This document shows, one piece after another, positions 2,519 to 58,318 of a stretch of DNA of 60,120 nucleotides; within the stretch, counting starts at the first letter, position 1, and each line of letters opens with the position of its first letter. The notes below the pieces were generated by a model, which was not told where the DNA came from, did not search any database, and saw only the letters and a program-made list of their open reading frames with translations. Both the position numbers and the translations under genes were made by a program. The DNA lies in contig JAISNN010000019.1 of assembly GCA_031276195.1 (NCBI GenBank), forward strand, positions 1 through 60,120, read 5' to 3'. The stretch is from Clostridiales bacterium. GTDB taxonomy: Bacteria > Bacillota > Clostridia > Christensenellales > JAISNN01.

Positions 2519-2955
2519 CCGCCGTACCCGCCGCCGATCACGCGGAGGGGGGATTTTGAGGAATTAAACGCGGTACTATACCGCGGATTTTGAGGGGGAA
2601 ACGAGAGTTTTTTAAGCGGTCTCGACGCTGCGCGGAGGGGGATTTTGTAAGGCCGCCCCACCCCCTAACCCCTCCCACGGAGGGGAATTTTCTCTCTCCG
2701 CGCTTTAAACGAAAAATTCACTTTCTCCGAGCGGCCGCTCACCCCTTTTGTCCCATCCCGCGGAGGGGAATAGCGGATAATTAGAGAATTCGCTTTCGTT
2801 GCCGCTTACTGACGGGGGGAGGGATTTTGAGGAATTAAACGCGGTACTATACCGCGTTTTTTTATATAAAAGAAATATTGGATTTTTGTATAGTTTCGCT
2901 ATTGATTTATTTTTTCGGTTTGTTGAAAATATTTTTTATTTTTCGTTTATTTTGC
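2519..2955. repeat. Spacer with palindromic and GC-rich elements
   Basis: This spacer between the two transporter genes contains two copies of the CGCGGTACTATACCGCG palindrome (2569-2586 and 2840-2856). Both lie in the same flank, GAGGAATTAAA. It also has two copies of the CCCC..GGAGGGG element (2654-2688, and a degenerate one at 2738-2770). No gene is seen. Confidence 0.85.
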
Positions 2956-2984
2956 TTGACAACGGTTTGGCTTTGAGATATACT
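2956..2984 (+). promoter_or_regulatory. Sigma-A-type promoter of the second GPH gene
   Basis: TTGACA at 2956-2961, a 17-nt spacer, and TATACT at 2979-2984. It points at the gene starting at 3211 and gives a leader of roughly 220 nt that is full of 39-bp repeats. Confidence 0.75.
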
Positions 2985-3032
2985 ATAAAACATATATATT
3001 TTGTATGTATATATATTATGTATAAAAATCCC

Positions 3033-3190
3033 GTTTTATATAAGCGTATTAGGTTATGTATAAAAATTTGATTTTATATAATGCGGAAAGAGCAATTATA
3101 TGAAACCACGTTTTATATAACGCGGAAAGAATAAGTATATAAAGTTCGGTTTTATATAGGCGAACGGGGTATACAACATTCAAAAGCCAA
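3033..3190 (+). repeat. 39-bp tandem repeats in transporter leader
   Basis: Four copies of an AT-rich unit marked by [GA]TTTTATATA at 3033, 3071, 3110 and 3149 (period 38-39 bp). They lie between the promoter at 2956-2984 and the Shine-Dalgarno AAAAGGAG at 3195-3202, so they are transcribed as 5' UTR. Confidence 0.8.
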
Positions 3191-3210
3191 ACGGAAAAGG
3201 AGAAAAAATT

Positions 3211-4599
3211 ATGAAAAAAACGGCGGGCAACAAGACTCTTTTGATATTTTGTTTGGGAGATTTTTCGCGGTCGGTTTTTAACGCGCTGACGGTTACGTAT
3301 TTGATGTATATTTTTATACCCGCGGAGGGTTCGACGATTCCGTCTTTGCTTCCGCGCGCCGCTTTCGTTTTCGCGCTTGTGCGCGGGCTCGGCGTGATTT
3401 TCGACGCGGTGATCGACCCCTTTATCGCGTCGAGAAGCGATAAAAGTACGAGTAAGCGCGGCGCGCGGATCTCTTTTATGCGGATAGCCGCGATTCCGAT
3501 GTCGGTGTTCGGGGTTTTGCTGGCTTTCGTGCCTTACGGATATCCGCACGCCCTCAACGTCGTTTGGTTCGTCGTTATGCTTTTCGGGTTTAACTTTTTT
3601 TCATCGCTGTATCACATTCCGTATTCCGCTCTCGCGGCGGAGATCGTTACCGATCACAAACGGCGCGTGTTCTTTTATACGATCAATACGGCGGTTTTCG
3701 TCGTCGGGAGCGTCATAATATTCGCCGCGCCGATCATAAAAAACGCCTTTGCCGCGGGAGGAATGTCCGAACTCGCCTCGTGGCGGCTGACGTTCGTTAT
3801 TTTCGGGTTTTTCGCGGCGGTTTTCGCGCTGATTCCCGTCGTTTTTATCAAGGAAAACGACTACGTGGAGCGGAAACCTTGCTACGCGCCCCTATTGCAA
3901 TCCTTTAAGGCGACGTTTAAATATAAAAATTTTTCTATACTCATCGCGGGCTATATCGTGATGTGGATCGCTTTTTCGTTCTTTAACTTTTCGCTGATGT
4001 ATTATATCACCGTGCTGATAGGCTTGAACGAAAGTTTTTCAACCGTCGTTATGGCTTTGACGATCGTCGTCGGCGTGGCGTCGTATCCTCTCGTCAACCG
4101 TTTGGCAAAAAAATTCGGGAAAAAACCTCTGCTCATAGGGGCTTGTATCGCCTATACCGTCATCTATACCGCGATCGCCCTGCACGCCGTGATCGTCCCG
4201 GCGATCGGGGGAACCGCGTTCGCCGTGCTGATAGGGGTCTTTATCGGCTTTCCCATATCGATTACGAATATCATTCCGTCCTCGGCGTTCGCCGATCTCG
4301 CGCAGTACGATACCATCAAAACGGGCGTAAACAGGGCGGGAATGTTCTCGGCGGTGCGTAGTTTTATCCTGCAATTGGCGCAGTCGATCGTTACTTTTAT
4401 CCTGCCCGCGCTGATCTCGAAAGGAAGCGCGGCGGGGAACGCCACGGTCGAAGGAACACGCCTCGTCGCGGTTACGGCGGCGGTCATAATCGGGTTTTCG
4501 CTGGTGTTCTATTTTTTGTATGACGACAAAGAGGTCGCGAAGACGATCAAAGAGGACAACGAGAGAATCGAGAGAGAGGCGAAAAATATAGCGGTATAG
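3211..4599 (+). CDS. GPH-family (MFS_2) cation-coupled sugar transporter
   Basis: A 462-residue, 12-helix transporter of the MelB/XylP (GPH) family in the cytoplasmic membrane. Helix II reads FDAVIDP (Asp65, Asp69). This matches the DAxxDP cation-site motif of MelB and is followed by the loop SDKSTSKRGARISFM, so Na+- or H+-coupled import of a glycoside, pentose or hexuronide is expected. The start at 3211 is set by AAAAGGAG at 3195-3202, and a promoter lies at 2956-2984. The stop codon is unusual: the final Ala-Val-TAG is read from a GCGGTATAGTATCGCGG palindrome (4591-4607). The dispersed element therefore defines the protein's C-terminus. The neighbouring paralogue at 980 lacks the helix II acidic pair. 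Confidence 0.9.
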   Translation: MKKTAGNKTLLIFCLGDFSRSVFNALTVTYLMYIFIPAEGSTIPSLLPRAAFVFALVRGLGVIFDAVIDPFIASRSDKSTSKRGARISFMRIAAIPMSVFGVLLAFVPYGYPHALNVVWFVVMLFGFNFFSSLYHIPYSALAAEIVTDHKRRVFFYTINTAVFVVGSVIIFAAPIIKNAFAAGGMSELASWRLTFVIFGFFAAVFALIPVVFIKENDYVERKPCYAPLLQSFKATFKYKNFSILIAGYIVMWIAFSFFNFSLMYYITVLIGLNESFSTVVMALTIVVGVASYPLVNRLAKKFGKKPLLIGACIAYTVIYTAIALHAVIVPAIGGTAFAVLIGVFIGFPISITNIIPSSAFADLAQYDTIKTGVNRAGMFSAVRSFILQLAQSIVTFILPALISKGSAAGNATVEGTRLVAVTAAVIIGFSLVFYFLYDDKEVAKTIKEDNERIEREAKNIAV

Positions 4600-4860
4600 T
4601 ATCGCGGAAAACGCGGGATAGAAAAGAGGAATGATTTTGGGAACGATGAATGGGAGAATCTGTCGGAAGCGCGGAATAGGAAAGGGGAATTTTTGAGAGG
4701 TAAAGGCGGTATAGTATCGCGGAAAACGCGCGTGAGAACCGGCGGAAAATGCGGAATAGAAAAGAGGAATGATTTTGGGAACGGCGGACGGAAGAAACGG
4801 TCGGAAGCGCGGAATAGGAAAGGGGAATTTTGAGAGGTAAAGGCGGTATAGTATCGCGGA
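4591..4860 (+). repeat. Array of three GCGGTATAGTATCGCGG palindromes
   Basis: Copies at 4591-4607, 4706-4722 and 4843-4859. They are embedded in a repeated block of about 115-137 bp with shared GGAATAGGAAAGGGGAATTT flanks. The first copy overlaps the end of the upstream transporter and supplies its stop codon. Confidence 0.85.
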
Positions 4861-4986
4861 AATTAAGGCGGATCTTAATCCTTACGGCGTACGGGGAAAA
4901 GTTTTAACGGGTATAACAAAAAAGAGTTTTTATTCCCGTCAAAAAAATATCGAAAATTCATAAACAATACATATTTTGCAATTAAA

Positions 4987-5020
4987 ATTGACGTATTCGC
5001 TTTTATTCGTCAATTTTTTT
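4987..5020. terminator. Hairpin with U-run, possible terminator
   Basis: ATTGACG and CGTCAAT form a stem around an AT-rich loop, followed by TTTTTTT on the plus strand. A-runs on the other side make it potentially bidirectional. It would end the transporter transcript before yyaC. Confidence 0.45.
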
Positions 5021-5131
5021 GCTTTTACGCGCGCCTTTTTAATCGGGAATCTTATTTAAAAAATCACGGGAAAGGCAATAATCTTTCGGTATGGAATAAG
5101 TTCGATTCGAGAACGGAGGATATTGAAAATT

Positions 5132-5758: not shown

Positions 5759-6103
5759 ACGGGAATGTGAGGGTTTGGGAGAGCTGAGGATTTAGACCGC
5801 TCCGCCGTTGTCCTTTCGGCGGAGGGGAATATAAGGATAATAAGTGAAATGCCGTTAAAATGCGCCGTTTCCGTTTTCTATCGTCATTGACGTAAAGGGT
5901 AATATTTTAAGCGGTCGCCCCACCCCTACACCCCTCCCACGGAGGGGAATAGCGGATAATAAGGGAAAAATGTCGTTAAAATGCGTCGCTTTTTAAGTCA
6001 TATCATTGTTGACGTAAACGGTAAAATATCAAACGTAACGTTTCGCCCCACCCTTAGAATCGTCGAATAAACTTGAACGAATTTTAGAATGCGTCTTTTT
6101 TGC
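5759..6103. repeat. Spacer with REP-like elements
   Basis: GC-rich elements at 5797-5832 (degenerate) and 5915-5950, plus a partial one near 6047. They are embedded in the same roughly 125-bp unit seen at 60-440 (GTGAAATGCCGTTAAAATGC flank). No gene is seen. Confidence 0.8.
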
Positions 6104-6261
6104 TATACTAATTAAATTTTTAATCCGTATGGTGTACGGATTAAAATCCGCCCGTTTAATGCCGTCATAGCGGTAAACCCGGCAAAATGTAACGGCTTGC
6201 CGCCGCATAATATGCGGTTTTAAATCAAACGTATGATTGATTTAAAAGTTTAACCGCTATA
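6104..6261. mobile_element. MITE-like element, copy 1
   Basis: About 158 bp starting TATACTAATTAAATTTTTAA and ending AAAAGTTTAACCGCTATA, so the ends are imperfect inverted repeats. The interior is homologous in inverted orientation to 9754-9949 and shares CCGTTTAATGCCGTCATAGC with it. It has no coding capacity, as expected of a non-autonomous element; no transposase is in the window. Confidence 0.65.
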
Positions 6262-6330
6262 AAATCTAAAAATTGAAAGCGGCGTGATATTATGATATAT
6301 AAAAAGGTTTGATATTTTTCCGTTTTTATG

Positions 6331-6700: not shown

Positions 6701-6743
6701 AAAAAACATACTTTGATGTAAAAAACATACTTTGGAGGCCTTA

Positions 6744-8807: not shown

Positions 8808-8840
8808 AATACAGAATAAAAAAATAAAGGAATGAAATAT

Positions 8841-8878: not shown

Positions 8879-8944
8879 GCCTCTTTTCAAAAACTTTTAG
8901 TAAAGTTGTAAGCGCAAAAATAAAAAATAATTTTTTTGAAATAT

Positions 8945-9949: not shown

Positions 9950-10393
9950 AATAGAGATTAAAAAAACAAAACAATTTTGAATTTTAAAACAAAAAATGCG
10001 GAGATTATGAAATTAAAAAAACGCGGTATAGTACCGTGTTTTTTATATGAGTAGGTATAGTTTTTTTATCGGTCGCCCACCCCTTTGATCCCCCCCCGCG
10101 GAGGGGAATAGCGGAGATTATAGATTAAAAAAACGCGGTATAGTACCGTGTTTTTTATATGGGAAAAAAATTGATTGCAGTATGGCGTTTCCGCGGTGTT
10201 GAGGTGCGAAAAAATCAATCGCGGGGCAGTGTTTTTGCGGTATTGAGATATGAAAAAACCAACCGCGGGGCAGTGTTTTTGCGGTATTGAGATATGAAAA
10301 AACCAACCGCGGGGCAGCGTTTCCGCAGTGTTGAGATATAAAAAATCAATCGCGGGGCAGTGTTTTTGCGGTATTGATTGAGATACGGAAAAA
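9950..10393. repeat. Palindromes, GC-rich element and 44-bp tandem repeat
   Basis: Two CGCGGTATAGTACCGTG palindromes (10022-10038, 10134-10150) flank a GC-rich element (10073-10110). From about 10165 to 10390 runs a tandem repeat of period 43-44 bp (GCGGGGCAG at 10221, 10265, 10309 and 10352) that ends at the stop codon of the aldolase gene. No gene is seen. Confidence 0.85.
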
Positions 10394-20891: not shown

Positions 20892-22751
20892 TTAACGGTT
20901 TTCGTCCTTTTTTCTGATGTCTTTTCTCATAACTTTTCCGCTGACCGTTTTCGGGAGCGCGTCGACGAATTCGATAATGCGCGGATATTTATAGGGCGCG
21001 GTGGCTTTTTTGACGTGTTCTTGAAGTTCTTTTTTGAGTCCGTCGGAGGGAGTGAAGCCTTTCGCGAGGACGATCGTCGCCTTGACTATTTGTCCGCGCA
21101 GCGGGTCGGGGACGGCGGTTATCGCGCATTCTAAGACGGACGGGTGTTCGTGCAGCGCGCTTTCCACTTCGAAAGGTCCGATCCGATATCCCGAACTTTT
21201 GATGATGTCGTCTTTGCGTCCGACGAACCAGAGATACCCGTCGGCGTCGGCGTAGGCGAGGTCGCCCGTTCCGTAATATTTGCCCGCCAAGGCGGCGTCC
21301 GTCTTTTCTTTGTCTTTGTGATATCCCATAAGGAGGCTGAAATTGTCTTTTTTGTTGAGAATGGCGAGTTCGCCGATCGCGCCGTTCGGTACGGGTTCGC
21401 CGTCGTCGCCGATCAAATCGACCTTATAGACGGGCGAGGGACGCCCCATCGAGCCTTGTTTCGGGGTGAGGCAGGTGAAAGTTCCGGCGATGACCGCGCT
21501 CTCAGACTGCCCGAAACCTTCGTGAATTTTTAAGCCCGTTATGCGGTCGAATTGATTGAAAATTTCGGCGTTTAAAGGTTCGCCCGCCGTGGAACAATGC
21601 TTGACGGAGGAGAGGTCGAATCCCGAAAGATCTTCCTTGACCAAAAAACGGTATATCGTCGGCGGAGCGCAAAAAGTCGTGATTTTATATTTCGAGAGGA
21701 GGGGGAGGATGTCGGTCGGGGTAAACCTACCGTAGTAGTCGTAGCCGAAAACCGCGCTTCCCGCGATCCATTGCCCGTATATTTTGCCCCACGAAAATTT
21801 CGCCCAGCCCGTCTCCGCCATCGTGAAATGCAAGCCGTCGTCGAGAACGCCGTGCCAATATTTCGCGTTTATGATATGCCCCAGAGGGTAGGTGAAGTCG
21901 TGAGCGACCATTTTGGGATAACCCGTCGTCCCCGAAGTAAAATATACCAGCATCATATCGGAATTTTTGTTGACGATTTTTTGGTATTTCGCGGGGGCGG
22001 CTTGAAGTTCGGCTTTTAGGCTGATGAAACCGCCGCCGGTGTTTTCGGAATTCGCATTTTGCGGTATAGAGCCGCCGTTTTGCCGGGTTTTATCCGTTTC
22101 GTTTTGAGCGTTTTCGGGGTTAGTATTTTGCGGTATAGAACCGCCGGTTTGCCGGGTTTTATCCGTTTCGTTTTGAGCGTTTTCGGAATTCGTATTTTGC
22201 GGTATAGAACCGCCGGTTGTTTGAGTTTTATCCGTTTTATTATGCGGTTCTTCGGTTATAAAAATATGTTTCAGCGTCGGGCAGTCGGGCAGCGAAGTTT
22301 TGAGATGCGAAAGAATTTCCTCTTCGTTGACCGAAAAAATCATCTTTACGTCCGCGCTGTTGCAGCGGTAGATTATGTCCTTCGGAGTGAGCATACACGT
22401 GGCGGGAATGATGACCGCGCCGATCTTGTGGGCGGCGACCGCGACGACCCAATATTCATAGCGGCGGTTTAGCATCGTCATAATAAAATCGCCCTTTTCC
22501 GCGCCGTATTTTTGCATTACGGCGGCGGCTTTGTCCGAAAGTTCGGCGAGTTCCTTAAAGGTTATGATTTTCTCCGCGCCTTTGTCGTCGCACCAAACCA
22601 ACGCGCGCTTTTCGGGAGCGAGGGCGGCGTATTTGTCAACTACGTCGTAGCCGAAATTGAAGCCGTCTTTGACGGAAATTTTTAGATTCTTGGAAAAATC
22701 GTCGTAGTCTTTAAATTCGATTTCGTTTAAAAAGTCGCCGAGTAAATTCAT
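20892..22751 (-). CDS. AMP-forming acyl-CoA synthetase with repeat insertion
   Basis: A 619-residue ANL-superfamily adenylating enzyme that activates a carboxylate with ATP and CoA, like acetyl- or medium-chain acyl-CoA synthetases. Motifs: phosphate loop YFTSGTTGYPK (270-280), GQSES in the A5 region, YGTGDLA, GRKDDIIKSSGYRIGPFEVE, and the C-terminal catalytic lysine in PKTVSGKVMRKDI. Residues about 171-240 are an insertion absent from the family: three copies of a 23-residue (69-nt) unit beginning GGSIPQN. Each encodes a GCGGTATAGARCCGCC palindrome (22061-22076, 22130-22145, 22199-22214). It lies in a surface loop just before the phosphate-loop strand and keeps the frame. The gene is downstream of thyA and folA on the same strand. 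GGAG lies 14 nt before the ATG. Confidence 0.9.
   Translation of the reverse strand: MNLLGDFLNEIEFKDYDDFSKNLKISVKDGFNFGYDVVDKYAALAPEKRALVWCDDKGAEKIITFKELAELSDKAAAVMQKYGAEKGDFIMTMLNRRYEYWVVAVAAHKIGAVIIPATCMLTPKDIIYRCNSADVKMIFSVNEEEILSHLKTSLPDCPTLKHIFITEEPHNKTDKTQTTGGSIPQNTNSENAQNETDKTRQTGGSIPQNTNPENAQNETDKTRQNGGSIPQNANSENTGGGFISLKAELQAAPAKYQKIVNKNSDMMLVYFTSGTTGYPKMVAHDFTYPLGHIINAKYWHGVLDDGLHFTMAETGWAKFSWGKIYGQWIAGSAVFGYDYYGRFTPTDILPLLSKYKITTFCAPPTIYRFLVKEDLSGFDLSSVKHCSTAGEPLNAEIFNQFDRITGLKIHEGFGQSESAVIAGTFTCLTPKQGSMGRPSPVYKVDLIGDDGEPVPNGAIGELAILNKKDNFSLLMGYHKDKEKTDAALAGKYYGTGDLAYADADGYLWFVGRKDDIIKSSGYRIGPFEVESALHEHPSVLECAITAVPDPLRGQIVKATIVLAKGFTPSDGLKKELQEHVKKATAPYKYPRIIEFVDALPKTVSGKVMRKDIRKKDENR
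22061..22214. repeat. Palindromic element, three in-frame copies in acyl-CoA synthetase
   Basis: Copies at 22061-22076, 22130-22145 and 22199-22214, period exactly 69 bp. On the coding strand they are read as Gly-Gly-Ser-Ile-Pro-Gln. The spacer sequence between copies is itself conserved, encoding ENAQNETDKTRQ. Confidence 0.9.
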
Positions 22752-22829: not shown

Positions 22830-23636
22830 TTATGCTTGCGGTTGTTTTACGTCGTTGTTTTTGTACTTGCAAAAGGTGTATGTTATTCCTTCGAATTCCT
22901 TTTTTTCGGAGCGGAAAACAAGCGTCCAGCGCGGAGGGATTAAAAAATTGATAAAGGTATCCGCGGCGGAGTCGCCGTCGATTTCGGTAATGAACGCGTA
23001 TTCGCAATAGCGTTCCAGCAATTCGTATACCGCGCCGCCGCCGATGACAAATACGCTTTCCGATTCGTGATTTTCCGGCGGCGATATACCGCCGTTTTCG
23101 GGGGTATTTAAGCATTGTTCAAAATTGTTTTTCATATTATCTAACCGCGGTACTATACCGCCGTTTTCGGGGATATTTAAGCATTGTTCAAAATTGTTTT
23201 TCATATTATCTAACCGCGGTACTATACCGCCGTTTCCGGGGATATTTAAGCATTGTTCAAAATTGTTTTTCATATTGTCTAACCGCGGTACTATACCGTC
23301 GTTTTCTGGGATATTTAAGGGGCGTTCCGAATTGTTTTCCGTATTGTTTAACCGCGGTACTATACCGTCGTTTTTAAGTAATTCAAAGAGTTCCTCCGCC
23401 GAACGGCACACCTCCGCGTTTTCGATTTTCAGGCTCGGATCGCGCGAGAGAACGATATTCCTGCGGTTCGGCAAGGGCTTCCCGTCCTTAAAAGATTTTA
23501 GGGTCGAATGTCCGACGACGACGGTTTTTCCCTCCGTCGTTCCGCGAAAAAACCGCATATCCTCTGGAATGCGGAAAAGAAGTTTATTTTTGTAACCTAT
23601 TCCGTTGTTTTTGTTTTTTGCGGCGATTAAGATCAT
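22830..23636 (-). CDS. folA: Dihydrofolate reductase with 100-residue repeat insertion
   Basis: A 268-residue DHFR (NADPH-dependent reduction of dihydrofolate), about 100 longer than the normal 160-170. N-terminal half: MILIAAKNKNNGIGYKNKLL, substrate Asp26 in FRIPEDMRFF, VVVGHSTLKSF and RNIVLSRD. The C-terminal half resumes at SVFVIGGGAVYELL (193-206) and ends normally. Between them, residues 89-190 are 4.5 copies of a 23-residue repeat (NGGIVPRLDNMKNNFEQCL and four more residues). Each copy encodes a CGGTATAGTACCGCGG palindrome. The insertion lies in the loop before the conserved nucleotide-binding strand, so the fold could survive. GAAGGA lies 7 nt before the ATG. It is downstream of thyA, the functional partner that makes dihydrofolate. 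Confidence 0.93.
   Translation of the reverse strand: MILIAAKNKNNGIGYKNKLLFRIPEDMRFFRGTTEGKTVVVGHSTLKSFKDGKPLPNRRNIVLSRDPSLKIENAEVCRSAEELFELLKNDGIVPRLNNTENNSERPLNIPENDGIVPRLDNMKNNFEQCLNIPGNGGIVPRLDNMKNNFEQCLNIPENGGIVPRLDNMKNNFEQCLNTPENGGISPPENHESESVFVIGGGAVYELLERYCEYAFITEIDGDSAADTFINFLIPPRWTLVFRSEKKEFEGITYTFCKYKNNDVKQPQA
23067..23372. repeat. Palindromic element, four in-frame copies in folA
   Basis: CCGCGGTACTATACCGYCG at 23145-23163, 23214-23232, 23283-23300 and 23352-23370, period exactly 69 bp. A decayed copy is near 23078-23096. Read on the coding strand as Gly-Ile-Val-Pro-Arg-Leu. Confidence 0.92.
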
Positions 23637-30822: not shown

Positions 30823-31184
30823 AGAAAAAACGCGGTACTATACCGCGGAAAAAGTTATATTTAAAGCGTATTTAAACGAAAAAACATCACACAAAAACGC
30901 GGTACTATACCGCGGAAAAAACGTAAAGCATTACACTAAACGCCGCTTATAGTTAGATTAAAGCAAAGCAAAAAAACGGCTCTATACCGTTTGTAAGCAT
31001 CACGCAAAAACGCGGTACTATACCGCGGAAAAAAACGTAAAGCATTACACTAAACGCGGCTTATAGTTGGATTAAAGCAAAGCAAAAAAACGGCTCTATA
31101 CCGTTTGTAAACATCACACAAAAACGCGGTACTATACCGCGGAAAAAGCCATAAAAAACGCCATATTAAATTCGGAGATAGCAT
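30823..31184 (+). repeat. Palindromic-element array between rpoB and rpoC
   Basis: Four perfect CGCGGTACTATACCGCGG copies at 30831-30848, 30898-30915, 31011-31028 and 31125-31142. The last three are 113-114 bp apart in a duplicated block that also holds two decayed copies (CGGCTCTATACCGT). The array fills the whole gap of an operon in which rpoB and rpoC normally lie close together. No promoter or terminator is evident in it. Confidence 0.92.
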
Positions 31185-43767: not shown

Positions 43768-44061
43768 CGGCGGATAAAAAGCCGCTTAAACGTGATTACC
43801 GCATACAAAAAACGGATAAAAAGCCGCTAAACGTGATTACCGCATACAAAAAAACGGATAAAAAGCCGCTAAACGTAATTACCGCATACAAAAAAACGGA
43901 TAAACGCCCGTTAAATTTCGGCAAACGAATAAAAAACGGACAAAAAGTCATTTAACATATATAAACGGCTATAAACGGCATACCGGAGAAATAAAAAGAC
44001 AACCGAAAAAAAATAATAAATTAGGCGAAATTAATTTGTGTCGAAAAGGAAGGGTATAATA
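43768..44061. repeat. 42-bp tandem repeat between the two repeat-protein genes
   Basis: GGATAAAAAGCCGCT units at 43772, 43814 and 43856, with a decayed one at 43898; period 42 bp. No hairpin terminator is evident. Confidence 0.75.
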
Positions 44062-45069
44062 ATGGATGCTTTTAAAAAAGACGGAAAAAACATCGGCAAA
44101 TACGTAACTTCGTTGCGTTCGGTCGCGCCGCACAAGGACACCAAGCCTTCGGTCGCGCCGTATAAAGATACAAAACCCGCGGTCGAGCCCTATAAGGACA
44201 CCAAGCCTTCGGTCGAACCGCATAAGGACAATAAGCCTTCGGTCGCGCCGCACAAAAACACCCAACCCTCTGTCGCGCCCCATAAGGATACCAAACCCGT
44301 CCGCGTCCCCCATAAGGACGTCAAGCCTTCGCGCGCGCCCTTTAAAGACACCAAGCCTCCGCGCGCTCCGCGCAAAAAATATGACCCGACGGAAAACGTT
44401 TCTATGGGCATAGAAACCGCGCCGCATAAGGACGTAAGTCCTAAGCCCGCGCCCTATAAAGACACAAAACCGAAACGCGAACCTTTTTTTGACATAAGAC
44501 CGAAGCGCGCGCCGCATAAAGACTTAAAGCCCAAACGCGCGCCGCATAAGGACAACAGACCGAAACTCGCGCCCGAAAAGGAATACGACGCGGCGGAGTC
44601 CGTGATGCTGATCGCTTCCGCGCCGCATAAGGACGTGATCCCTCAGCCCGCGCCCTACAAAGACACAAAGCCCAAACGCGTTCCGCATAAGGACAAAAAA
44701 CCAAGACGCGACCCGGATAAGGAACATTCCGCGACGGATACGATTACGATCATCACGTCCGCGCCGCCGAAAGACGTAAAACCTAAACGCGCGCCGCACA
44801 AAAACAGACTTCCGTCCGTCGCGCCCTATAAAGACACCAAACCGCCGCGCGCGCCCCACAAGGACAACAAACCGAAACGCGCGCCGCATAAGGACAATAA
44901 GCCGCAAAGGGATCCCGACGCGTATAATATGTTCGCGGACTACGATCCGAATTTCGTTCCGGACGAACCCGTTATGCCGAGCGATCCCTACGCGAACGAC
45001 AAGAGAGCCAAAAAATTGCAAAAAAAGTTGAAAAAACTTGAAAAGAAACAAAAAAAACGGAAAAAATAA
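44062..45069 (+). CDS. Pro/Lys decapeptide-repeat protein 2
   Basis: 335 residues, soluble. About 25 ten-residue repeats (APHKDTKPSV, APYKDTKPAV, RAPHKDNKPK) run from residue 20 to 290. They are divided into blocks by KKYDPTENVSMGIETAPHKD, EKEYDAAESVMLIASAPHKD and DKEHSATDTITIITSAPPKD. The C-terminus YNMFADYDPNFVPDEPVMPS and the Lys-rich end match the paralogue at 42916. AGGAAGGG precedes the ATG at 44062; an in-frame GTG at 44038 lies before that site. Basic, proline-rich and non-membrane, so perhaps a scaffold or a nucleic-acid- or envelope-associated rod. Function unknown. Confidence 0.82.
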   Translation: MDAFKKDGKNIGKYVTSLRSVAPHKDTKPSVAPYKDTKPAVEPYKDTKPSVEPHKDNKPSVAPHKNTQPSVAPHKDTKPVRVPHKDVKPSRAPFKDTKPPRAPRKKYDPTENVSMGIETAPHKDVSPKPAPYKDTKPKREPFFDIRPKRAPHKDLKPKRAPHKDNRPKLAPEKEYDAAESVMLIASAPHKDVIPQPAPYKDTKPKRVPHKDKKPRRDPDKEHSATDTITIITSAPPKDVKPKRAPHKNRLPSVAPYKDTKPPRAPHKDNKPKRAPHKDNKPQRDPDAYNMFADYDPNFVPDEPVMPSDPYANDKRAKKLQKKLKKLEKKQKKRKK

Positions 45070-50129: not shown

Positions 50130-50600
50130 AAACACGGCAAAGATAATTAAAAACGGGATAAAAATAGGGCAAAAACAAGGTAAAAACACGCTAAAAATAG
50201 GGCAAAAACAAGGCGAAAACAGGGCGAAAACACGCTAAAATACGCTAAAAACACGGCAAAAACGGGATAAAAACAAGGCAAAAATAGGGCGAAAACACGC
50301 TAAAAACGGGGTAAAAATAGGGCAAAAACGGGATAAAAATAGGGCAAAAACAAGGCAAAAACAAGGCAAAAACGGGATAAAAATAGGGCAAAAATAGGGC
50401 AAAAACGGGATAAAAACAAGGCAAGAATAGGGCGAAAACAAGGTGAAAACACGCTAAAATACGCTAAAAACACGGCAAAAACACGCTAAAAATAGGGTAA
50501 AAATAGGGTGAAAATAGGGCGAAAACAAAGTAAAAACAAGGCAAAAACATGGTAAAAACAAGGCAAAAACGTGGTAAAAATAGGGCAAAAATAAAATAAA
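50130..50600. repeat. 11-bp phased A-tract array
   Basis: About 40 units such as AAAAATAGGGC, AAAAACAAGGC, AAAAACGGGAT and AAAAACACGCT. Starts fall every 11 bp (for example 50160, 50171, 50182, 50193). A-tracts repeated at the helical pitch should produce strongly curved DNA. The long minus-strand open frame across it is only the repeat translated. Confidence 0.8.
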
Positions 50601-50869: not shown

Positions 50870-53104
50870 ATGGCGCACTACAAAAGACCCGAATTTCCCA
50901 AAAGGATTGTCATTACGGCGGGAATGCCGAACGGAAACAAGCCCTTGCATATCGGCCATGTCGGCGCGATTTTTCTCTGGGCGGACGCTTACGCGCGCTA
51001 TATGCGCGACAATATCGGGAACGAAAACGTCATTTTTGTGTCGGGAACGGACGGCTTCGGCTCGGTCGCGGAGGAAAAATACAGAAAACTCCGCGAGGCG
51101 GGAGAATATGACGGCACGATCGCCGATTACGTCGGCGGATATCACGAAATTCAAAAAAACACCTTGAAAAAATACGGCGTTTCTTTGAATCTTTTCGCCG
51201 CGTCGTGCTTCGGAAAATCCTACGAACATCACAAAAAAATGTCCGATTATTTCTTTGAAACTATGTTGAAAAACGGTTATATGGAGAAAAAAACGGGCGA
51301 ACAATTCTATGATAAAGACGCCGATATGATCCTGAACGGCAGGCAGGTAGAGGGAAAATGCCCCATCGACGGTTGCAAATCGGAGGTCGGCTATGCGGAC
51401 GAATGCTCTCTCGGGCATCAATATTCGCCGTCGGAACTTATCGATCCGGTCAGTACGCTTACGGGGAAAAAACCCGAAATGATCGCCGTCAATAACTACT
51501 ATTTGAGGTTGGAAGCCTTCCGCGAAGAGATCAGGGCTTGGTGCGACAAGTTGGAAAAAACGGGCTCGGCGCGGAAATTTATGATTCGCGATATGCGCGA
51601 CTTTTTGCAGCCGCCTATGCTTTTCATCTCCGAATCGGCAAAGGACGAAATCGACAAAATCACGGGGAAATTGCCGACGCATTCCTATTTTCACGACGAA
51701 AAAAACAAGCGCGTACAGTTGAAATTCGCGTCCGTCGAGGAGCGCGACAAGGCGTGCGGCGTTTTGAAGGAATCGGGGATAAGATACCGCTCGAATAAAA
51801 CTCTCGCGCCTTTCAGAATCTCGGGGAACGCCAAATGGGGAATCCCTCTGCCCGCCGTCCCCGACGGCTCGACGGACGGACTGACCTTTTATGTCTGGCC
51901 CGAATCGCTTTGGGCTCCGATTTCGTTCACGGATACCTACCTTTCGGGGGAGGGAGAGCGGACGGGAGAGGGTTCCGGCTGGCGCGATTGGTGGTGCGAA
52001 AAGGACGCTAAGGTCGTGCAGTTCATAGGCGAGGACAACGTGTTTTTTTACTGTCTCGCGCAGACGGGGCTTTTTCTCGCGATGCAGGGCAAGGATTACG
52101 GCATAGAAGCCGCGGACGGCAAACTCAATCTTACCTACGTCGCCGCGAATAAGCACCTCTTGACGAATAACGCGAAGGCAAGCAGCAGCGGAGTTTATAA
52201 AGCCCCGACCGCGGACAGCCTCTTGGAACACTATACCGTCGAACAGTTGAGAATGCACTTTTTGGGGCAGGGGATCAGTACGGCGACGGCGAATTTCCGC
52301 TCGAAGGTCTTTTCGCCCGAAGAATGCCAAAAGGGGGGCGACCCCGTTTTGTTGCAGGGGAATATATTGACGAATATTTTTAACCGAATCGTGCGTTCGG
52401 TTTTCTATTCATTGCAACAGTATTTCGGAGGGAAACTGCCGTCGTCGGAGTATGCCGAAAAGGGCGTGAAAGAGGGCTTGGAAGCGAGGTATAGTACCGC
52501 GTTAAATGGCGGGGGAAAAGAGGATAAAGGGAATGCGGAATGCGCGGCGGAAAAGCCAGGAAATAGTACAGGAAACGGTTGTAAAGAGAGTGCGGAAGCG
52601 CGGTATAGCGCCGCGTTAAATGGCGGGGAATGCGCGGTTAGAAACAATACGGAAAACGGTTGTAAAGAGGGGGCGGAAGCGCGGTACAGTACCGCGTTGA
52701 AACCGTCTGAGGACGCGATAGACAGGGCGGCGGCGGCGTTGGAAAAATACGAGGAGTTTTTTGCGAAATATGAATTTAATAACGCGGTCGGAGTGATCGA
52801 CGAATATTTCCGTTCGGCAAATCAATATTGGGCGGAAAAGTCGAAAACCGACGATTTGTCCGCGCGCGCGCGGCTGATCGCGGACACGGTTCACGTCGTC
52901 AAGACGGGCGTTTTGATGCTGCACGCGCTCGCGCCGGACGGCGCGGAACTCGTCGCGGAATATATGAACGCGGGGAATAGGCTTTTTGATTGGAACAACG
53001 CCTTGAAAACCTTTGACGAGGTTTGCCCGGACGTCGAAGGATTTAGATTTATAGAGCCGCGGTTCGACTTCTTTAAAAAACACGAAAGTCAACTCGGAAC
53101 GTGA
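50870..53104 (+). CDS. Methionyl-tRNA synthetase-like class I ligase with repeat insertion and altered KMSKS
   Basis: 744 residues. Class I catalytic domain with the HIGH motif in NKPLHIGHVGA (27-30) and a MetRS-type zinc knuckle CPIDGC..ADECSLGHQYSPSEL (164-190). The KMSKS loop is NNAKASSSGVYKA (436-440 KASSS), so the second lysine is missing. The alpha-helical anticodon-binding region begins after about 490. Residues about 531-613 are an insertion of three repeats starting EARYSTALNGG. Each encodes a CGCGGTATAGTACCGCG-type palindrome (52485-52501, 52599-52615, 52680-52696; spacings 114 and 81 nt). The C-terminal tRNA-binding domain of some MetRS is absent. Either the cell's MetRS or a class I tRNA ligase paralogue of changed function. 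Confidence 0.85.
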   Translation: MAHYKRPEFPKRIVITAGMPNGNKPLHIGHVGAIFLWADAYARYMRDNIGNENVIFVSGTDGFGSVAEEKYRKLREAGEYDGTIADYVGGYHEIQKNTLKKYGVSLNLFAASCFGKSYEHHKKMSDYFFETMLKNGYMEKKTGEQFYDKDADMILNGRQVEGKCPIDGCKSEVGYADECSLGHQYSPSELIDPVSTLTGKKPEMIAVNNYYLRLEAFREEIRAWCDKLEKTGSARKFMIRDMRDFLQPPMLFISESAKDEIDKITGKLPTHSYFHDEKNKRVQLKFASVEERDKACGVLKESGIRYRSNKTLAPFRISGNAKWGIPLPAVPDGSTDGLTFYVWPESLWAPISFTDTYLSGEGERTGEGSGWRDWWCEKDAKVVQFIGEDNVFFYCLAQTGLFLAMQGKDYGIEAADGKLNLTYVAANKHLLTNNAKASSSGVYKAPTADSLLEHYTVEQLRMHFLGQGISTATANFRSKVFSPEECQKGGDPVLLQGNILTNIFNRIVRSVFYSLQQYFGGKLPSSEYAEKGVKEGLEARYSTALNGGGKEDKGNAECAAEKPGNSTGNGCKESAEARYSAALNGGECAVRNNTENGCKEGAEARYSTALKPSEDAIDRAAAALEKYEEFFAKYEFNNAVGVIDEYFRSANQYWAEKSKTDDLSARARLIADTVHVVKTGVLMLHALAPDGAELVAEYMNAGNRLFDWNNALKTFDEVCPDVEGFRFIEPRFDFFKKHESQLGT
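52460..52708 (+). repeat. Palindromic element, three in-frame copies in MetRS-like gene
   Basis: Copies at 52485-52501, 52599-52615 and 52680-52696, read as Ala-Arg-Tyr-Ser-Thr/Ala-Ala-Leu. The intervals of 114 and 81 nt are both multiples of three. Confidence 0.9.
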
Positions 53105-53993: not shown

Positions 53994-55829
53994 ATGGCTA
54001 AGCGAACCGATAAAAAGCCGATTTACGGCGACGGCGCGAACATCGCTTATATGTTCAAAAACTGGTGGAATTTTGACAAGCGCAGTTTTTTTCTCTATGC
54101 TATGATGATTCCGCCGCTGATCGTGATGCCGATCTTGACCGCCCTCATTCCGAAACTCATAATCGACGAGATTAGCGGCGGCGCGGATCTTTGGCATATG
54201 ATTTTACTGATCGGGCTGATGTCGGTCTTGATCGCTTTGATCACGTGGATCAACCCGTTTTTTGACTCGAAAAGCGACGCGGTCGCCGAAAATATCAACA
54301 CCGACTACCGTATCCGCGCTTTCAAAAAAATGATGCGCGCGGACTACGAATATATCGAAAGCGCGGAGGGCAGGCTGGCTTTCGAACAAAGTAAATCCTT
54401 TACTCAGGGGTGGGGGTGGGGCGCGCGCGGTTTTTTTAAGGCGGTCGTCGATTTCGTTTCCAACGTCATCGGGCTTTTTACTTATACCGTCATTTTAACC
54501 GCCGTCGATCCCGCGCTTATCGCGATCGTTTTGGCGTGCGGCGCGGTCAATTTTGTTTCGGAATATTTCTTCATCAAAAAAAATAACAAACTTAACGACG
54601 AAAGCCGCTATCTTCACCTCAAAACAAACTATATTTTTAAAACGGCGAACGACTACGCCGCGGGAAAAGACGTCCGTATATACGGCTTCCGCGATTTTTT
54701 TAAGACCGCCTCAAACGACGTTATTCGCGGCGTAAATAAGTTCGCGGCGCGCTTTTTCGGGCTGGAAACCGCTATGAACGGTATACAAATCCTTATGACC
54801 GCGGTTTGCGAGGGCGCGGCGTTCTTCTACCTTTTGAAAGGCGCGGTCGGGGGAGAACTTTCCGCGTCTGATTTCATATTCTATTTCGCGCTGGTTACGG
54901 GCTTTTTCGTATGGATTTTCACACTGACGAATACGCTTATGAGAATCAAAAAAATCTCGCATAACTGCGGGAAATACCGCGAATTCGTCGGGGGAAACGA
55001 GGACGAAAAAGAGGGAATCCCCCTGCCGGGAAAAGAGGAATTTCCCTGCGGAATCGAGTTTCGGGACGTAACCTTTACGTATAAGGGCGGCGAGGAACCG
55101 ACGGTGAAAAATATGTCGTTCAAGATAAAACCGGGCGAAAAAATCGCCGTCGTGGGCGAGAACGGCGCGGGAAAAACTACATGCGTTAAACTGCTTTGCG
55201 GCTTTTATAAACCGCAGTCGGGACGGATTTTGCTGAACGGCAAAGACATTTCGGAATTCAACGAAAAGGAATATTTTAAACTCTTCGCCGCCGTTTTTCA
55301 AGACTATATCCTGCTCCCGATGAGCATAAAGAAAAATATCGCCCTAAAAGAAAACGACGCGGATATCGATGCGGAAAAATTGGAAAGAGTCATAAAAGAG
55401 GCGGGACTGTACGAAAAAATCCGCGCCCTGCCCGAAGGAAAAGAAACAAAATTGGTCAAAAAAGTTTTCGACGACGCGGTCAATCTCTCGGGCGGCGAAA
55501 TCCAAAAACTCCTCCTTGCGCGCGCGCTCTATAAAGACGCGGAAATTTTGATTCTGGACGAGCCGACCGCCGCGCTCGATCCCATCGCCGAAAACGATAT
55601 GTATCTGAAATATAACGGCTTCGCGGGAAACAAAACCTCCTTCTTTATATCGCACCGCCTGTCGTCGACGCGCTTTTGCGACAGAATTTTCTTTATTCGG
55701 GACGGGAGAATTTTGGAGGCGGGGACGCACGGCGAATTGATGGAGAAAAAGGGAGCGTATTATAAAATGTACGAGATACAAAGTTATTACTATAAAAACG
55801 GATTGAAAAATGAAAACGGCGCGGTATAG
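53994..55829 (+). CDS. ABC exporter half-transporter 1
   Basis: About 611 residues: N-terminal membrane domain with about six helices (residues 25-330), then an ATPase domain. ATPase motifs: Walker A GENGAGKT, Q-loop AAVFQDYI, signature LSGGE, Walker B ILILDEPTAALD, and the switch His in SHRLSS. It exports an unknown substrate (lipid, peptide or drug), probably as a heterodimer with the next gene, which has the same layout. GGTGA, 5 nt before the ATG at 53994, serves as a weak ribosome site; an in-frame GTG at 53985 is the alternative. The stop is formed by a CGCGGTATAGAACCGCGG palindrome (55820-55837), which gives the terminal Ala-Val-TAG. Confidence 0.9.
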   Translation: MAKRTDKKPIYGDGANIAYMFKNWWNFDKRSFFLYAMMIPPLIVMPILTALIPKLIIDEISGGADLWHMILLIGLMSVLIALITWINPFFDSKSDAVAENINTDYRIRAFKKMMRADYEYIESAEGRLAFEQSKSFTQGWGWGARGFFKAVVDFVSNVIGLFTYTVILTAVDPALIAIVLACGAVNFVSEYFFIKKNNKLNDESRYLHLKTNYIFKTANDYAAGKDVRIYGFRDFFKTASNDVIRGVNKFAARFFGLETAMNGIQILMTAVCEGAAFFYLLKGAVGGELSASDFIFYFALVTGFFVWIFTLTNTLMRIKKISHNCGKYREFVGGNEDEKEGIPLPGKEEFPCGIEFRDVTFTYKGGEEPTVKNMSFKIKPGEKIAVVGENGAGKTTCVKLLCGFYKPQSGRILLNGKDISEFNEKEYFKLFAAVFQDYILLPMSIKKNIALKENDADIDAEKLERVIKEAGLYEKIRALPEGKETKLVKKVFDDAVNLSGGEIQKLLLARALYKDAEILILDEPTAALDPIAENDMYLKYNGFAGNKTSFFISHRLSSTRFCDRIFFIRDGRILEAGTHGELMEKKGAYYKMYEIQSYYYKNGLKNENGAV

Positions 55830-56287
55830 AACCGCGGAAAAAACGGATTGAAATTAAGGGATTTTAAACCGAATTAAATATAGTTTTGACGCGTGAAAAA
55901 ACGGATTCAAAAGACTAAAAACGCGGTATAGTACCGCGTGAAAAAACGGATTGAAAAACGGACAATTCTAAAAATGAGTGATAAAAATCGGTATAAATCC
56001 GAATCGGCCGCCCCACCCCTTTGATCCCCTCCCACGGAGGGGAATATAAGGAACGGAGTTTACGATAACTACCGCTTTATTTCGCCTTTTTAGAAATATC
56101 AAAAAACGGATTCAAAAAAATAAAAAACGCGGCATAGAACCGCGGAAAACAACGGATTCAAAAAAATAAAAAACGCGGCATAGAACCGCGTGAAAAACGG
56201 ATTCAAGAAACCGAAAAAACGCGGTATAGAACCGCTAAAAAAAGATTATATTACCGCGAAAAAGTCGGCGCGGAGGGAGGGCTTGAA
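55820..56287 (+). repeat. Palindromic elements and GC-rich element between ABC genes
   Basis: Palindromes at 55820-55837 (overlapping the upstream stop), 55922-55939, 56128-56145, 56174-56190 and 56220-56235, and a GC-rich element at 56009-56046. Five palindromes in 420 bp is the densest cluster in the window. Confidence 0.9.
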
Positions 56288-58318
56288 ATGCCGAAAATAA
56301 AAAAAACAAAAACTTCAAAATTGTTTTTTAGAACCTTAAAAGAAATTTTTTCGTTTTCGCCGAGTATTCTGCCCTTGCAGTTTTTCGCCGCGTTGACGGG
56401 AGCCGTCAAGCCGTTCATAAACGTCGTCTTGACGGCGAAAATCGTCGGCGAACTGCTCGTTTTAGACGGGAAAAACGTCGGAAATCTCGTCCTTTACGCC
56501 GCTCTTGCCGTGGGGCTGAATTTTTTATCGTCGGCGTTGACGACGGTTATTCAATCGGCGTCGGCAAACGCGATATATCCGTCGACGTATTTTAAAGAAA
56601 AATTGAAAGCCGCCGAAAAACTCTTTTCCGTAGACTACGCGAAACTCGAAGATAAAGAATTCGACGGCAAGGCGCGGAAATTCAAGGAGAGTACGGAAAC
56701 AATCGGCAGCCATTTCGGCTATTTTGCATTCGCCGTTTCAAAACTTTTTTTCGGGGCGGTTTCCGTCGCTTCCGCCGCCGTCGTTTTGACCCCTCTGTTT
56801 AAAATCAGTTTCGTAAAAACGGGCGAGGGCTTCGCAAACTCTCCCTACTTCGCGGTCTTTGTCTTCGGACTTATGGCGGTTTTGGTCCTCGCCGTGTTTT
56901 TTCTCAACAAGAGAACGCAAAAATTGTATTTCCATCTGAAAGATCAATACCTGAATTTGAGCAAAATTTTTGAATATTATCTCGAAACCGTAACGGATTA
57001 TAAGAACGGAAAAGAGATACGCATATTCGGCGAACAGGAACTTATCGAGCGCGACGCATACCATAATTTGATCGAAAAAGGCGTCAAAATCAGGAAAAAA
57101 GTCGCCGACGCCACGGGGCTGAATTCGTCGTTTATCGCGATCATAGGCGCGATCGCGGGCTTCGGAGTCTATTCGTTCATAGGCGTCAAGGGACACGCGG
57201 GAGCGATAAAAATCGACGAGTTGGTTATGTATACGGGCAGTTTTATGATCATCGTCAACGGCTTGATAGAAATCTTTACGCAGATCGGAAGTTTCGTCGA
57301 AATTTTCGGGACGGTCGGGTATTATTTCGACGTGATAGATACGGAAAATCAGCCGTGCGGCGATCGGAAAATCAGCGGTATAGATCTCGGAAATCTCGTC
57401 ATAGAATACCGCAGCGTCAGTTTTAAATATCCCGGGAGCGACGTCTACGCCCTGAAAGACCTCAGTATGACAATCCGCCCGAACGACAGACTTGCGATCG
57501 TCGGCAGGAACGGTTCGGGAAAGACGACATTTATCAAACTTTTGACAAAAATGTATGACAATTATGAGGGCGAAATCTTGATCAACGGAATCGAAATGCG
57601 CGAATTTGATACCGACGATTATAGGAAAATATTCGCGGTGGTCTTTCAGGATTATAAAATATTCGCGTTTACGGCGGCGGAAAACGTCGCTTGCGCAGTC
57701 GACCGGAACGATGATGAAAAAGAGAAAAAAACGCGGTATAGAAGCGCGGAAAATCCGGAATATAAAGAGGAAAAAGAGATTGATAAAAAAGAAATAGCGG
57801 AACTTTATAATGCCGGCGGAAAAGACGCAAAAACGCGGTATAGAGCCGCGGAAAATCCGGAATATAAAGAGGAAAAAGAGATTGACAAAAAGAGGGTTTT
57901 CGAATGCCTCGACGCCGCGGGCATAGGCGGACGCGTAAGGCGTATGCCGAATGGCGCGGACACATTTATGTATAAGGATTGCAGCAAGGACGGCGTGGAA
58001 ATCTCGGGCGGCGAATCTCAAAAACTCGCTCTCGCACGCGCGCTCTATAAAGACGCTTCGTTCATAATCTTGGACGAACCGACCGCCTCCCTCGACCCCG
58101 TCGCGGAATATGAATTGTATTCAAAATTTGACGGCTTGGTCGGAGGCAAAACCGCGATATATATTTCACACCGCCTTTCGTCCTGCCGCTTTTGCGAAAA
58201 AATCGCCGTGTTCGACAAAGGGCGGCTGATTCAATACGGGACGCACGGAGAATTGATCAAGGACGAGAATAATAAATATTATGAATTGTGGAACGCGCAA
58301 GCAAAATATTATGTGTAG
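56288..58318 (+). CDS. ABC exporter half-transporter 2 with repeat insertion
   Basis: 676 residues: membrane domain (about 20-340) and ATPase domain with Walker A GRNGSGKTT, Q-loop FAVVFQDYK, signature ISGGES, Walker B FIILDEPTASLD and switch His in SHRLSS. All ATPase residues are present. Between Q-loop and signature, in the helical subdomain, sit two copies of a 34-residue repeat (KTRYRSAENPEYKEEKEIDK and onward), each encoding a CGCGGTATAGARSCGCGG palindrome (57732-57749 and 57834-57851, 102 nt apart). Half-transporter 1 has about 60 residues fewer there, so this is an insertion. GGAGGGAGG lies 8 nt before the ATG. It likely pairs with the preceding gene product. Confidence 0.92.
   Translation: MPKIKKTKTSKLFFRTLKEIFSFSPSILPLQFFAALTGAVKPFINVVLTAKIVGELLVLDGKNVGNLVLYAALAVGLNFLSSALTTVIQSASANAIYPSTYFKEKLKAAEKLFSVDYAKLEDKEFDGKARKFKESTETIGSHFGYFAFAVSKLFFGAVSVASAAVVLTPLFKISFVKTGEGFANSPYFAVFVFGLMAVLVLAVFFLNKRTQKLYFHLKDQYLNLSKIFEYYLETVTDYKNGKEIRIFGEQELIERDAYHNLIEKGVKIRKKVADATGLNSSFIAIIGAIAGFGVYSFIGVKGHAGAIKIDELVMYTGSFMIIVNGLIEIFTQIGSFVEIFGTVGYYFDVIDTENQPCGDRKISGIDLGNLVIEYRSVSFKYPGSDVYALKDLSMTIRPNDRLAIVGRNGSGKTTFIKLLTKMYDNYEGEILINGIEMREFDTDDYRKIFAVVFQDYKIFAFTAAENVACAVDRNDDEKEKKTRYRSAENPEYKEEKEIDKKEIAELYNAGGKDAKTRYRAAENPEYKEEKEIDKKRVFECLDAAGIGGRVRRMPNGADTFMYKDCSKDGVEISGGESQKLALARALYKDASFIILDEPTASLDPVAEYELYSKFDGLVGGKTAIYISHRLSSCRFCEKIAVFDKGRLIQYGTHGELIKDENNKYYELWNAQAKYYV
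57706..57895 (+). repeat. Palindromic element, two in-frame copies in ABC ATPase domain
   Basis: Copies at 57732-57749 and 57834-57851, period 102 bp, read as Thr-Arg-Tyr-Arg-Ser/Ala-Ala. Confidence 0.9.

Follow-up and report, generated by a model that had tools for sequence, protein, structure and literature searches.

The genome of a Clostridiales bacterium analyzed here carries a strongly over-represented 17-bp near-palindrome, for which we use the working name E (GCGGTATAGTACCGC, usually flanked by C before and G after). Neighboring copies keep a regular spacing phase, and this phase is shared by the A/T tracts which flank them. The reading that we favor, with about even confidence, is that E is the site of a putative DNA-binding protein. 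The site would have spread through local tandem duplication, with selection for spacings that place the copies on the same helix face.

The window, i.e., the whole 60,120-nucleotide stretch that was analyzed, contains 36 match rows at 28 distinct places when the 17-mer is searched with up to three mismatches, compared to 0.30 expected. The 28 places listed by the original prediction are all real: 27 are recovered by this search and the 28th (22061) by the 15-mer core with two mismatches. At 4591, 4706, and 4843, the 17-mer begins one base earlier than the positions given there. An extra three-mismatch match at 46948 is taken for a chance occurrence. In the genome as a whole (completeness 93.84%), E is hugely over-represented, with 278 forward matches and 274 reverse ones when two mismatches are allowed (some variant places may be counted twice), versus one forward and one reverse match for the reversed pattern used as control. 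The five congeners have 3–19 matches each (up to one mismatch), and E is abundant in one of the six species of the genus. In the order outside the genus, 5 of 55 genomes have one 1-mismatch match each. The exact 17-mer occurs in 11 stretches of the genome_contigs collection, with one match apiece (this collection may leave out entries from the genome of the window itself); two of these are Clostridiales MAGs taken as congeners and nine are scattered single matches. A wider taxonomic home for E was rejected because the matches outside the genus are scattered singles, and a viral origin because the exact 17-mer is absent from the viral contigs collection. In congener stretches selected independently of the motif, the octamer CGGTATAG is not enriched (56 occurrences vs. 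up to 75 for its neighbors), while the longer CGGTATAGNNCCG shows a slight excess (6 vs. 0–3 for seven altered patterns). A highest-order Markov model for over-represented words gave nothing useful, and our literature searches found neither a mention of the 15-mer core nor a report of tandem repeats in termite gut Clostridia.

Our sample comprises 443,714 of the 2,273,851 bases, namely the window and 20 further stretches. The latter were picked for exact copies of E, so that the density of E in the sample does not represent that of the genome. The window itself was not chosen on the motif; some of the congener stretches were. Genes were called with our own hexamer-based script and not with a standard caller. 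The sample contains 107 E clusters, 44 of which hold two to four copies. The core contains two inverted GCGGT, and the TAG at its center, which interrupts the palindrome, is retained in 91–100% of the clusters. Conservation across clusters stops at about 17 bp plus the A/T tracts. Within genes lie 44 of the 180 sampled copies, compared to 72% coding DNA.

Apart from the twelve in-frame copies, the window has two exact intergenic copies on the minus strand (2569..2585 and, 271 bp beyond, 2840..2856), a three-copy array on the plus strand (4590..4858; copies at 4590, 4705, and 4842), two intergenic plus-strand copies spaced 112 bp apart (10022..10150), and five plus-strand copies at 55820..56236 (55820, 55922, 56128, 56174, and 56220), the last three with a 46-bp period. 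As had been predicted, the TAG within E is used as a stop in two genes: the first copy of the 4590..4858 array terminates a major facilitator superfamily (MFS) transporter ORF (3211–4599), and the copy at 55820 terminates an ABC transporter ORF at 55829. The 362-bp intergenic region between rpoB and rpoC (30823..31184, minus strand) carries four exact copies (30831, 30898, 31011, and 31125) and two decayed ones (30976–30990 and 31090–31104); in three congeners this region is about 3–30 bp long.

Twelve copies lie in frame within four genes, in agreement with the original prediction. The AMP-binding gene of the acyl-CoA ligase type (20892..22751, minus strand) has three, located in a 71-codon inserted segment (22035..22247, plus strand) which consists of three 69-bp units with E at 22061, 22130, and 22199; the sequences of four congeners are uninterrupted, or almost uninterrupted, at this position. 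The DHFR gene (22830..23636, minus strand) has four, in an insert of about 100 codons (23070..23369, minus strand) made up of four 69-bp units, with E 15-mers at 23147, 23216, 23285, and 23354, and a decayed fifth copy at 23078. This insert is missing from five congeners. Three copies (52485, 52599, and 52680) lie in the gene for a Met-type class I aminoacyl-tRNA synthetase (50870..53104, plus strand), within an insert of about 83–86 codons (52457..52705, plus strand, limits approximate) that four congeners lack. An ABC transporter gene (56288..58318, plus strand) has two, 102 bp apart at 57732 and 57834; their insert (57698..57890, plus strand, limits approximate) is missing from three congeners. 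The predicted protein readings GIVPR, GGSIP, and ARYST were verified, as were the within-gene spacings of 69, 69, 114, 81, and 102 bp, all of which are multiples of three. Over the sample, 11 of 11 spacings in genes are divisible by three versus 20 of 65 between genes.

The alignment with orthologues gave a divided answer to the claim that E adds segments to proteins. The E arrays of the four genes do lie in segments which congeners lack, and inserts with E are missing from the compared congeners in six genes in total (four of the window and two of stretch L009). However, among the 20 of the 44 in-gene copies that were compared with an orthologue, 15 are within inserted segments and five align without any indel at the motif. 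Two of these five are exact: that at L027:2424 is aligned without indel in four congeners, and that at L024:16118 is also exact in one congener, so that this copy may simply be old. The weaker no-indel copies may be chance GIEPR-type codon runs. For some single copies, congeners carry similar residues at the corresponding position; for the arrays they do not. Of nine genes with inserts of at least 15 codons, three are devoid of E.

Local tandem duplication is rampant in this genome. The sample contains 311 tandem arrays, which account for 11.1% of 444 kb compared to 0.6–2.1% in congener stretches. The window alone (10.8%) agrees with the whole sample on this coverage as well as on the spacing phase. 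E is absent from 281 of the arrays; 37 such E-free arrays with a period of 30–160 bp are in coding DNA, and the period of 36 of these is divisible by three. The motif-free inserts and coding arrays indicate that inserts are a general habit of this genome. Intergenic regions are also long, with a median of 436 versus 150.5 bp in congeners for those with E (12 regions) and 308 versus 175.5 bp for those without (24 regions). Congener intergenic regions are too diverged to show the origin of the intergenic E copies. A second species-specific palindrome is present at 106 copies.

The spacings between neighboring E copies have a period of 11.35–11.45 bp (R = 0.61, 78 spacings). When each of 45 arrays contributes only its first spacing, R is 0.67, while 2000 random trials reach at most 0.53. 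At 11.35 bp, R is 0.86 for 11 in-gene spacings and 0.58 for 65 intergenic ones, and it is 0.90 for 18 spacings from the window and 0.53 for 60 from the other stretches. The phase is a property of arrays with E: among tandem arrays, R(11.35) is 0.72 for 24 which contain E versus 0.15 for 123 noncoding ones which do not (0 of 20,000 draws). The A/T tracts flank the core on both sides and are centered about 11.5 and 23 bp out. Like the spacing phase and the richness of the genome in other tandem repeats, they were not part of the original prediction. Outward of the outermost copies, A/T content oscillates at 11.2–11.4 bp for about 100 bp, in phase with the E spacing. After masking of E-like sequence and removal of tandem arrays, its amplitude is 0.068, compared to a maximum of 0.048 in 200 random anchor sets. 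The 33 single copies, again without arrays, have a flank amplitude of 0.071 at a period of 11.05, which barely exceeds the control maximum of 0.064. Intergenic regions with E (E masked) peak at 11.3–11.5 and those without E at 10.6–11.0, the mean of the latter being driven by a few A-tract arrays. A genome-wide 11-bp signal was rejected as source of the phase because E-free regions do not peak at 11.35. Within arrays, an ungapped comparison of 25 unit pairs from 16 arrays shows matching bases for 92% of the core, 96–100% at the positions 11–12 bp to either side (A/T runs match easily), and 69% of the spacer beyond 22 bp.

In the explanation that we favor, a putative sequence-specific protein would bind E and wrap or bridge the DNA, with a full site that would consist of the 15–17 bp core and the A/T tracts about 11.5 and 23 bp to either side. 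E and its neighboring DNA would be copied mainly by local tandem duplication, and duplications would preferentially be retained if the new copy is on the same helix face, giving spacings near n × 11.35 bp. This value would be near the helical repeat that negatively supercoiled DNA has within living bacteria; the loops of such bacterial domains are described as having about 11 bp per turn (PMC8501960). Some copies would originate in place by substitution, and the in-gene arrays would be by-products, tolerated if the unit length is divisible by three as well and the unit lies in a variable loop or linker. We infer that selection caused the phasing. The duplication mechanism itself could instead be its source, which counts against our preferred explanation. 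A role of the putative protein in nucleoid organization is a guess, and abundance in one of six species would be odd for a core nucleoid function. An extra ParB-family protein was not found, PF02195 having one match here, one in four of the congeners, and none in the fifth. The location of 15 of the 20 comparable in-gene copies within inserts was also counted on the opposing side.

The original prediction raised the possibility of a mobile or self-amplifying element, reminiscent of Rickettsia palindromic elements (RPEs), that adds segments to proteins. In a rival explanation of this kind, a short hairpin would transpose into genes and intergenic DNA, and slippage would then generate the arrays. 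The inserts in six E-holding genes are consistent with this, as is the greater length of E-bearing intergenic regions relative to those of congeners, although E-free regions are longer too. However, a longer mobile body common to the loci was rejected because the flanks of 76 clusters are no more alike than random noncoding DNA (45 linked pairs out of 2850, where three control sets of random noncoding DNA gave 53, 33, and 43). A search for the Y1 transposase/RAYT (PF01797) gave no match in this 93.84% complete genome and was positive in 5 of 14 control genomes. In addition, transposition leaves the copies without indel, the phased spacing, and the A/T tracts unaccounted for, and the E-free arrays with their codon-compatible periods speak against it as well. 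We thus consider transposition unlikely, and the claim of a protein-extending mobile element is not upheld. Neutral origin, where a single repair or replication defect drives tandem duplication and E is merely prone to start it, is suggested by the array coverage and by the second palindrome. It explains neither the phase nor the recurrence of one 15-mer at 107 clusters whose flanks are no more alike than random, and we regard it as improbable.

It is improbable that E serves as a DNA uptake signal like the USS of Pasteurellaceae, built up by uptake-biased natural transformation. The USS is described as a GCGG(T) inner core accompanied by AT-rich regions positioned by helical turns (PMC12616744), which resembles the two inverted GCGGT of E with A/T tracts one and two turns off. 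The in-gene copies without indel would fit, and a ComEC competence-domain gene was detected in all six genus genomes searched. Against this, ComEC occurs widely (in 10 of 14 control genomes) and proves little, its match in this genome is split in two pieces, the five-base likeness may be chance, and the copies are clustered. Phased tandem arrays are not known among uptake signals. Highly improbable, in our view, is an action of E at the RNA level as an intercistronic hairpin, either a terminator or an mRNA-stabilizing element of REP type. Exact copies can form a 7-bp stem, as read from the sequence, and of the 131 intergenic copies with called genes on both sides, 120 are between codirectional genes and only four in divergent regions. 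Yet, a sense-strand T run follows E in just 16 of these 120 cases and A tracts are on both sides in 75, so that E is not terminator-like; the GC-rich hairpin followed by a T run of intrinsic terminators is not what is found. Furthermore, E shows no clear preference for either orientation (37 to 22 per region), substitutions in its arms frequently disrupt pairing, E sits between rpoB and rpoC, and Rfam has no match anywhere in the window. Covariation of the arms was rejected as evidence for a hairpin: changes on both sides are few, and the outer pair is A-T in 5 cases versus G-T in 24 and A-C in 11.

Going beyond the binding-site explanation, we tentatively raise the possibility that E arrays are a new chromosome-architecture element, in which a dedicated protein would assemble on same-face E sites and phased A/T tracts. 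Its demand for such sites would have driven E through the whole chromosome of one species and lengthened proteins via a DNA-shape constraint. Equally tentative is the part of this proposal by which E spread into operons such as rpoB-rpoC and across the genes for DHFR and a tRNA synthetase. If this holds, the helical repeat of the chromosome within a living uncultured bacterium is recorded in the spacing of a dispersed motif. E would also offer a natural test of whether palindromes in genes move by themselves or are binding sites of a protein that tandem duplication has spread. Should the binding protein be found, the sequence could reveal part of the folding of this chromosome, and essential enzymes, DHFR among them, would show the effects of DNA-driven in-frame insertions.

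Among known systems, RPEs share with E the palindromic character, the many copies both in frame in conserved genes and between genes, and the narrow host range. In-frame insertion in conserved protein genes is indeed found for E. However, RPEs are described as 105–146 bp long with terminal inverted repeats of 12 bp (PMC2229807), while the unit here measures about 17 bp, has no shared body enclosed by such repeats, forms tandem helix-phased arrays, and has some copies without any insertion. Membership of E in this family is therefore unsupported. REPs and BIMEs are likewise short palindromes with hundreds of copies, chiefly intergenic and often clustered. The Y1 transposase is the enzyme linked to GTAG-type REPs. 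REPs are defined by a GTAG or CGTC tag at one palindrome end, the CGTC type being described as without a dedicated transposase (PMC3733652). Neither tag is present in the profile of the 107 E clusters, and E differs further by the lack of a detected RAYT, by same-orientation tandem units, by its A/T tracts, and by the 11.35-bp phase. Uptake sequences (USS/DUS) have in common with E the GCGGT core and the AT-rich regions at helical-turn distance; E has two inverted cores, tracts on both sides, and phased tandem arrays. HIP1, the highly iterated palindrome GCGATCGC of cyanobacteria, is also a strongly over-represented short palindrome which seemingly arises in place (for E, compare the 44 of 180 sampled copies within genes, at 72% coding DNA, and the 5 of 20 comparable ones without indel), but E is longer, with an asymmetric center, tandem arrays, and phased flanks. 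Mitochondrial GC clusters and the palindromes of Volvox are examples of short palindromes multiplied as organelle hairpins. PARCEL, a 25-residue amphipathic protein repeat (PMC2996958), resembles E in having short palindromes in coding tandem repeats. Finally, phased A-tracts with a repeat of about 10–11 bp are taken to mark curved DNA in supercoiled loops (PMC3940949), whereas the periodicity described here is tied to a specific motif of 15–17 bp at 11.35 bp.

The near-palindromic motif of about 17 bp (element E) is highly overrepresented. With up to three mismatches, its 17-mer CGCGGTATAGTACCGCG yields 36 match rows in the window, falling on 28 places, where shuffled sequences predict 0.30. 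The original prediction had listed 28 places, 27 of which were recovered with this 17-mer and one (22061) with the 15-mer core. The genome-wide count proposed there as a check showed an excess: with up to two mismatches, the 15-mer matches the genome of the window (G000; 2,273,851 bases in 93 contigs) 278 times in forward and 274 times in reverse orientation, compared to 1 and 1 for the reversed pattern. With up to one mismatch, there are 168 + 158 matches in G000 but totals of only 19, 3, 6, 17, and 10 in the five congeners (G001 to G005) and a single match in each of 5 among 55 other genomes of the order. When any base is allowed at the two central positions, the counts are 261 for G000 and 22, 4, 3, 18, and 6 for G001 to G005 (controls 0–1). 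These counts indicate that the genus has E at low copy and that it has multiplied in the species of the window.

A 443,714-base sample of G000 (the window and 20 stretches picked for exact copies) contains 180 copies with up to two mismatches (79 exact). They form 107 clusters, 63 with a single copy and 44 with two to four copies, the latter having a single orientation in 42 cases. The core is GCGGTATAG[T/A]ACCGC. Its central TAG breaks the symmetry and is retained in 91–100% (107 clusters); the site is therefore directional, and only its arms are palindromic. According to our own gene calls, 134 of the 180 copies are intergenic, 44 are within genes, and 2 are at gene edges, while genes make up 72% of the sample. 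Between called genes are 131 intergenic copies, of which 120 have codirectional neighbours, 7 convergent ones, and 4 divergent ones; intergenic regions of these three classes total 93.8, 8.5, and 13.3 kb. Codirectional intergenic regions of G000 are A-rich on the sense strand (A 0.38–0.41, T 0.24–0.27), with runs of at least five A about three times as frequent as those of T; this is weaker in the congeners (A 0.32, T 0.28).

Spacings between adjacent copies bunch near 46, 57, 68, 79, 90, 102, 114, 125, and 137 bp, with some in between. The best period is 11.35 bp (phase strength R 0.61, 78 spacings); when only one spacing per array is used, the first (45 arrays), it is 11.45 bp, and R is 0.67 compared to at most 0.53 in 2000 random trials. 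The window, which was not chosen on E, has R 0.90 (n = 18), compared to 0.53 (n = 60) in the other 20 stretches. The phase extends into the flanks: outward of the outermost copies, A/T content peaks at about 11.5, 23, 34, 46, and 57 bp from the centre and onward, to at least about 100 bp. With E-like sequence masked, the amplitude is 0.085 (maximum of 200 random anchor sets 0.039), and with tandem arrays also removed 0.068 (maximum 0.048). Restricted to 33 single copies, arrays again removed, the signal is marginal (0.071 vs. 0.064, best period 11.05). The spectrum of E-bearing intergenic regions, with E masked, has a sharp peak at 11.3–11.5, which was found neither in E-less intergenic regions of G000 nor in congener regions.

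In alignments of the host genes with congener orthologues, a check proposed originally, the segments with E arrays are absent from the congeners. The acyl-CoA ligase is longer by 71 codons (in four congeners, residue 168 joins about 240), DHFR by about 100 (in five congeners, residue 89 joins about 190; a solved DHFR aligns on either side of this break), and the Met-type tRNA synthetase by about 83–86 compared to four congeners; the extra segment of the ABC transporter is in two pieces compared to three congeners. The rpoB-rpoC gap spans 362 bp and contains six copies of E, four of them exact and two decayed; three congeners have gaps of about 3, 21, and 30 bp. Spacings within genes are all multiples of three, as originally noted (11 of 11; intergenic 20 of 65), and despite this constraint they also follow the 11.35-bp period (R 0.86, n = 11). 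The TAG frame of E, correctly predicted to end two window ORFs, is used by 0 of 32 same-strand copies within genes, which holds by construction because it ends the gene. Frame keeping is therefore selection on the host gene.

Inserts of at least 15 codons relative to some congener occur in 9 of 61 compared genes (deletion in 1); six of the nine carry E and three do not. At L009:17063–18565, a 126-codon insert consists largely of 45-bp units (4 x 11.25), only one with a perfect E; graded likeness in others (NGIESQN, KSIAPQN) hints at gain or decay of E unit by unit. A ComEC competence-domain match (G000, C47:79144–80520) is single-piece in five congeners but here falls into two pieces about 189 codons apart in a 709-aa open frame, probably another large in-frame insert.

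A comparable orthologue was available for 20 of the 44 within-gene copies; 15 of these are in inserts, and at the other 5 the alignment runs through E without an indel. The exact copy at L027:2424 encodes NSRYSTAVK, with equal-length congener peptides NSRYNAS, NSRYTAS, DSRYRST, and NARYYAA and only substitutions in the DNA of four congeners. That at L024:16118 encodes an AVLYR ending common to the G001 orthologue and is probably old, because G001 has an exact copy at the same place.

G000 is exceptionally rich in tandem arrays: 311 of them occupy 11.1% of the sample (10.8% when the window is taken alone), compared to 0.6–2.1% of congener stretches (5 to 19x). Noncoding arrays have R(11.35) 0.72 with E (n = 24) but 0.15 without (n = 123; 0 of 20000 draws). 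Coding arrays without E (periods 30–160 bp) also keep the frame (36 of 37). In-frame insertion thus characterizes this genome as a whole, not E in particular. Much of one ORF (44038–45069) is taken up, at 44118–44904, by E-less tandem 30-bp units and their multiples. A second palindromic repeat, about CCCCTCCCACGGAGGGGAAT and often following CGCCCCACCCC, has 106 copies in the 444-kb sample, none in coding DNA, and was not found in 642 kb of congener DNA; window copies are at 171, 297, 421, 2670, 5932, 17826, 46198, 46343, 49066, 49151, 53464, 53651, and 56027. About 40 strongly phased copies of the 11-bp A-tract unit AAAAACAGGGC at 50149–50591 presumably form curved DNA; similar arrays (L017:16613–17213, L023:5554–6514, L027:15294–15810) have periods of 10.75–11.0, not 11.35.

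A longer element hidden around E was rejected: among 2850 pairs of flanks from different E clusters, 45 are linked, no excess over random noncoding controls (53, 33, and 43). Within arrays (25 unit pairs, 16 arrays, ungapped), matches are 92% in the core, 96–100% at ±11–12 bp, and 69% in distant spacer. This preservation while the spacer drifts, a core that is conserved yet asymmetric, A/T tracts at a distance of one and two helical turns, and same-face spacing near the in vivo helical repeat together point most likely to a candidate E-binding protein, which would wrap or bridge DNA. New sites would arise mostly by tandem duplication, sometimes by substitution. Loops in bacterial domains with negative supercoiling have a helical turn of about 11 bp (PMC8501960), and nucleoid folding has been linked to A-tract periodicity of 10–11 bp (PMC3940949). 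G000 has a single ParB-family match, the same number as each of four of the five congeners; a search of G000 for Y1 transposase found none. A role as an uptake signal is a live rival to the binding protein because the USS combines a core of GCGGT with AT-rich regions positioned by helical turns (PMC12616744).

No paper containing the 15-mer was found within the open-access literature searched. The proposed likeness to Rickettsia palindromic elements stands for some shared features, but a tested defining one (PMC2229807) does not apply to E. The same is true for REP (PMC3733652), and some features are common to E and to HIP1 (PMC4390886) and PARCEL (PMC2996958). We rate E as a dispersed short repeat, the new part being its phased arrangement.
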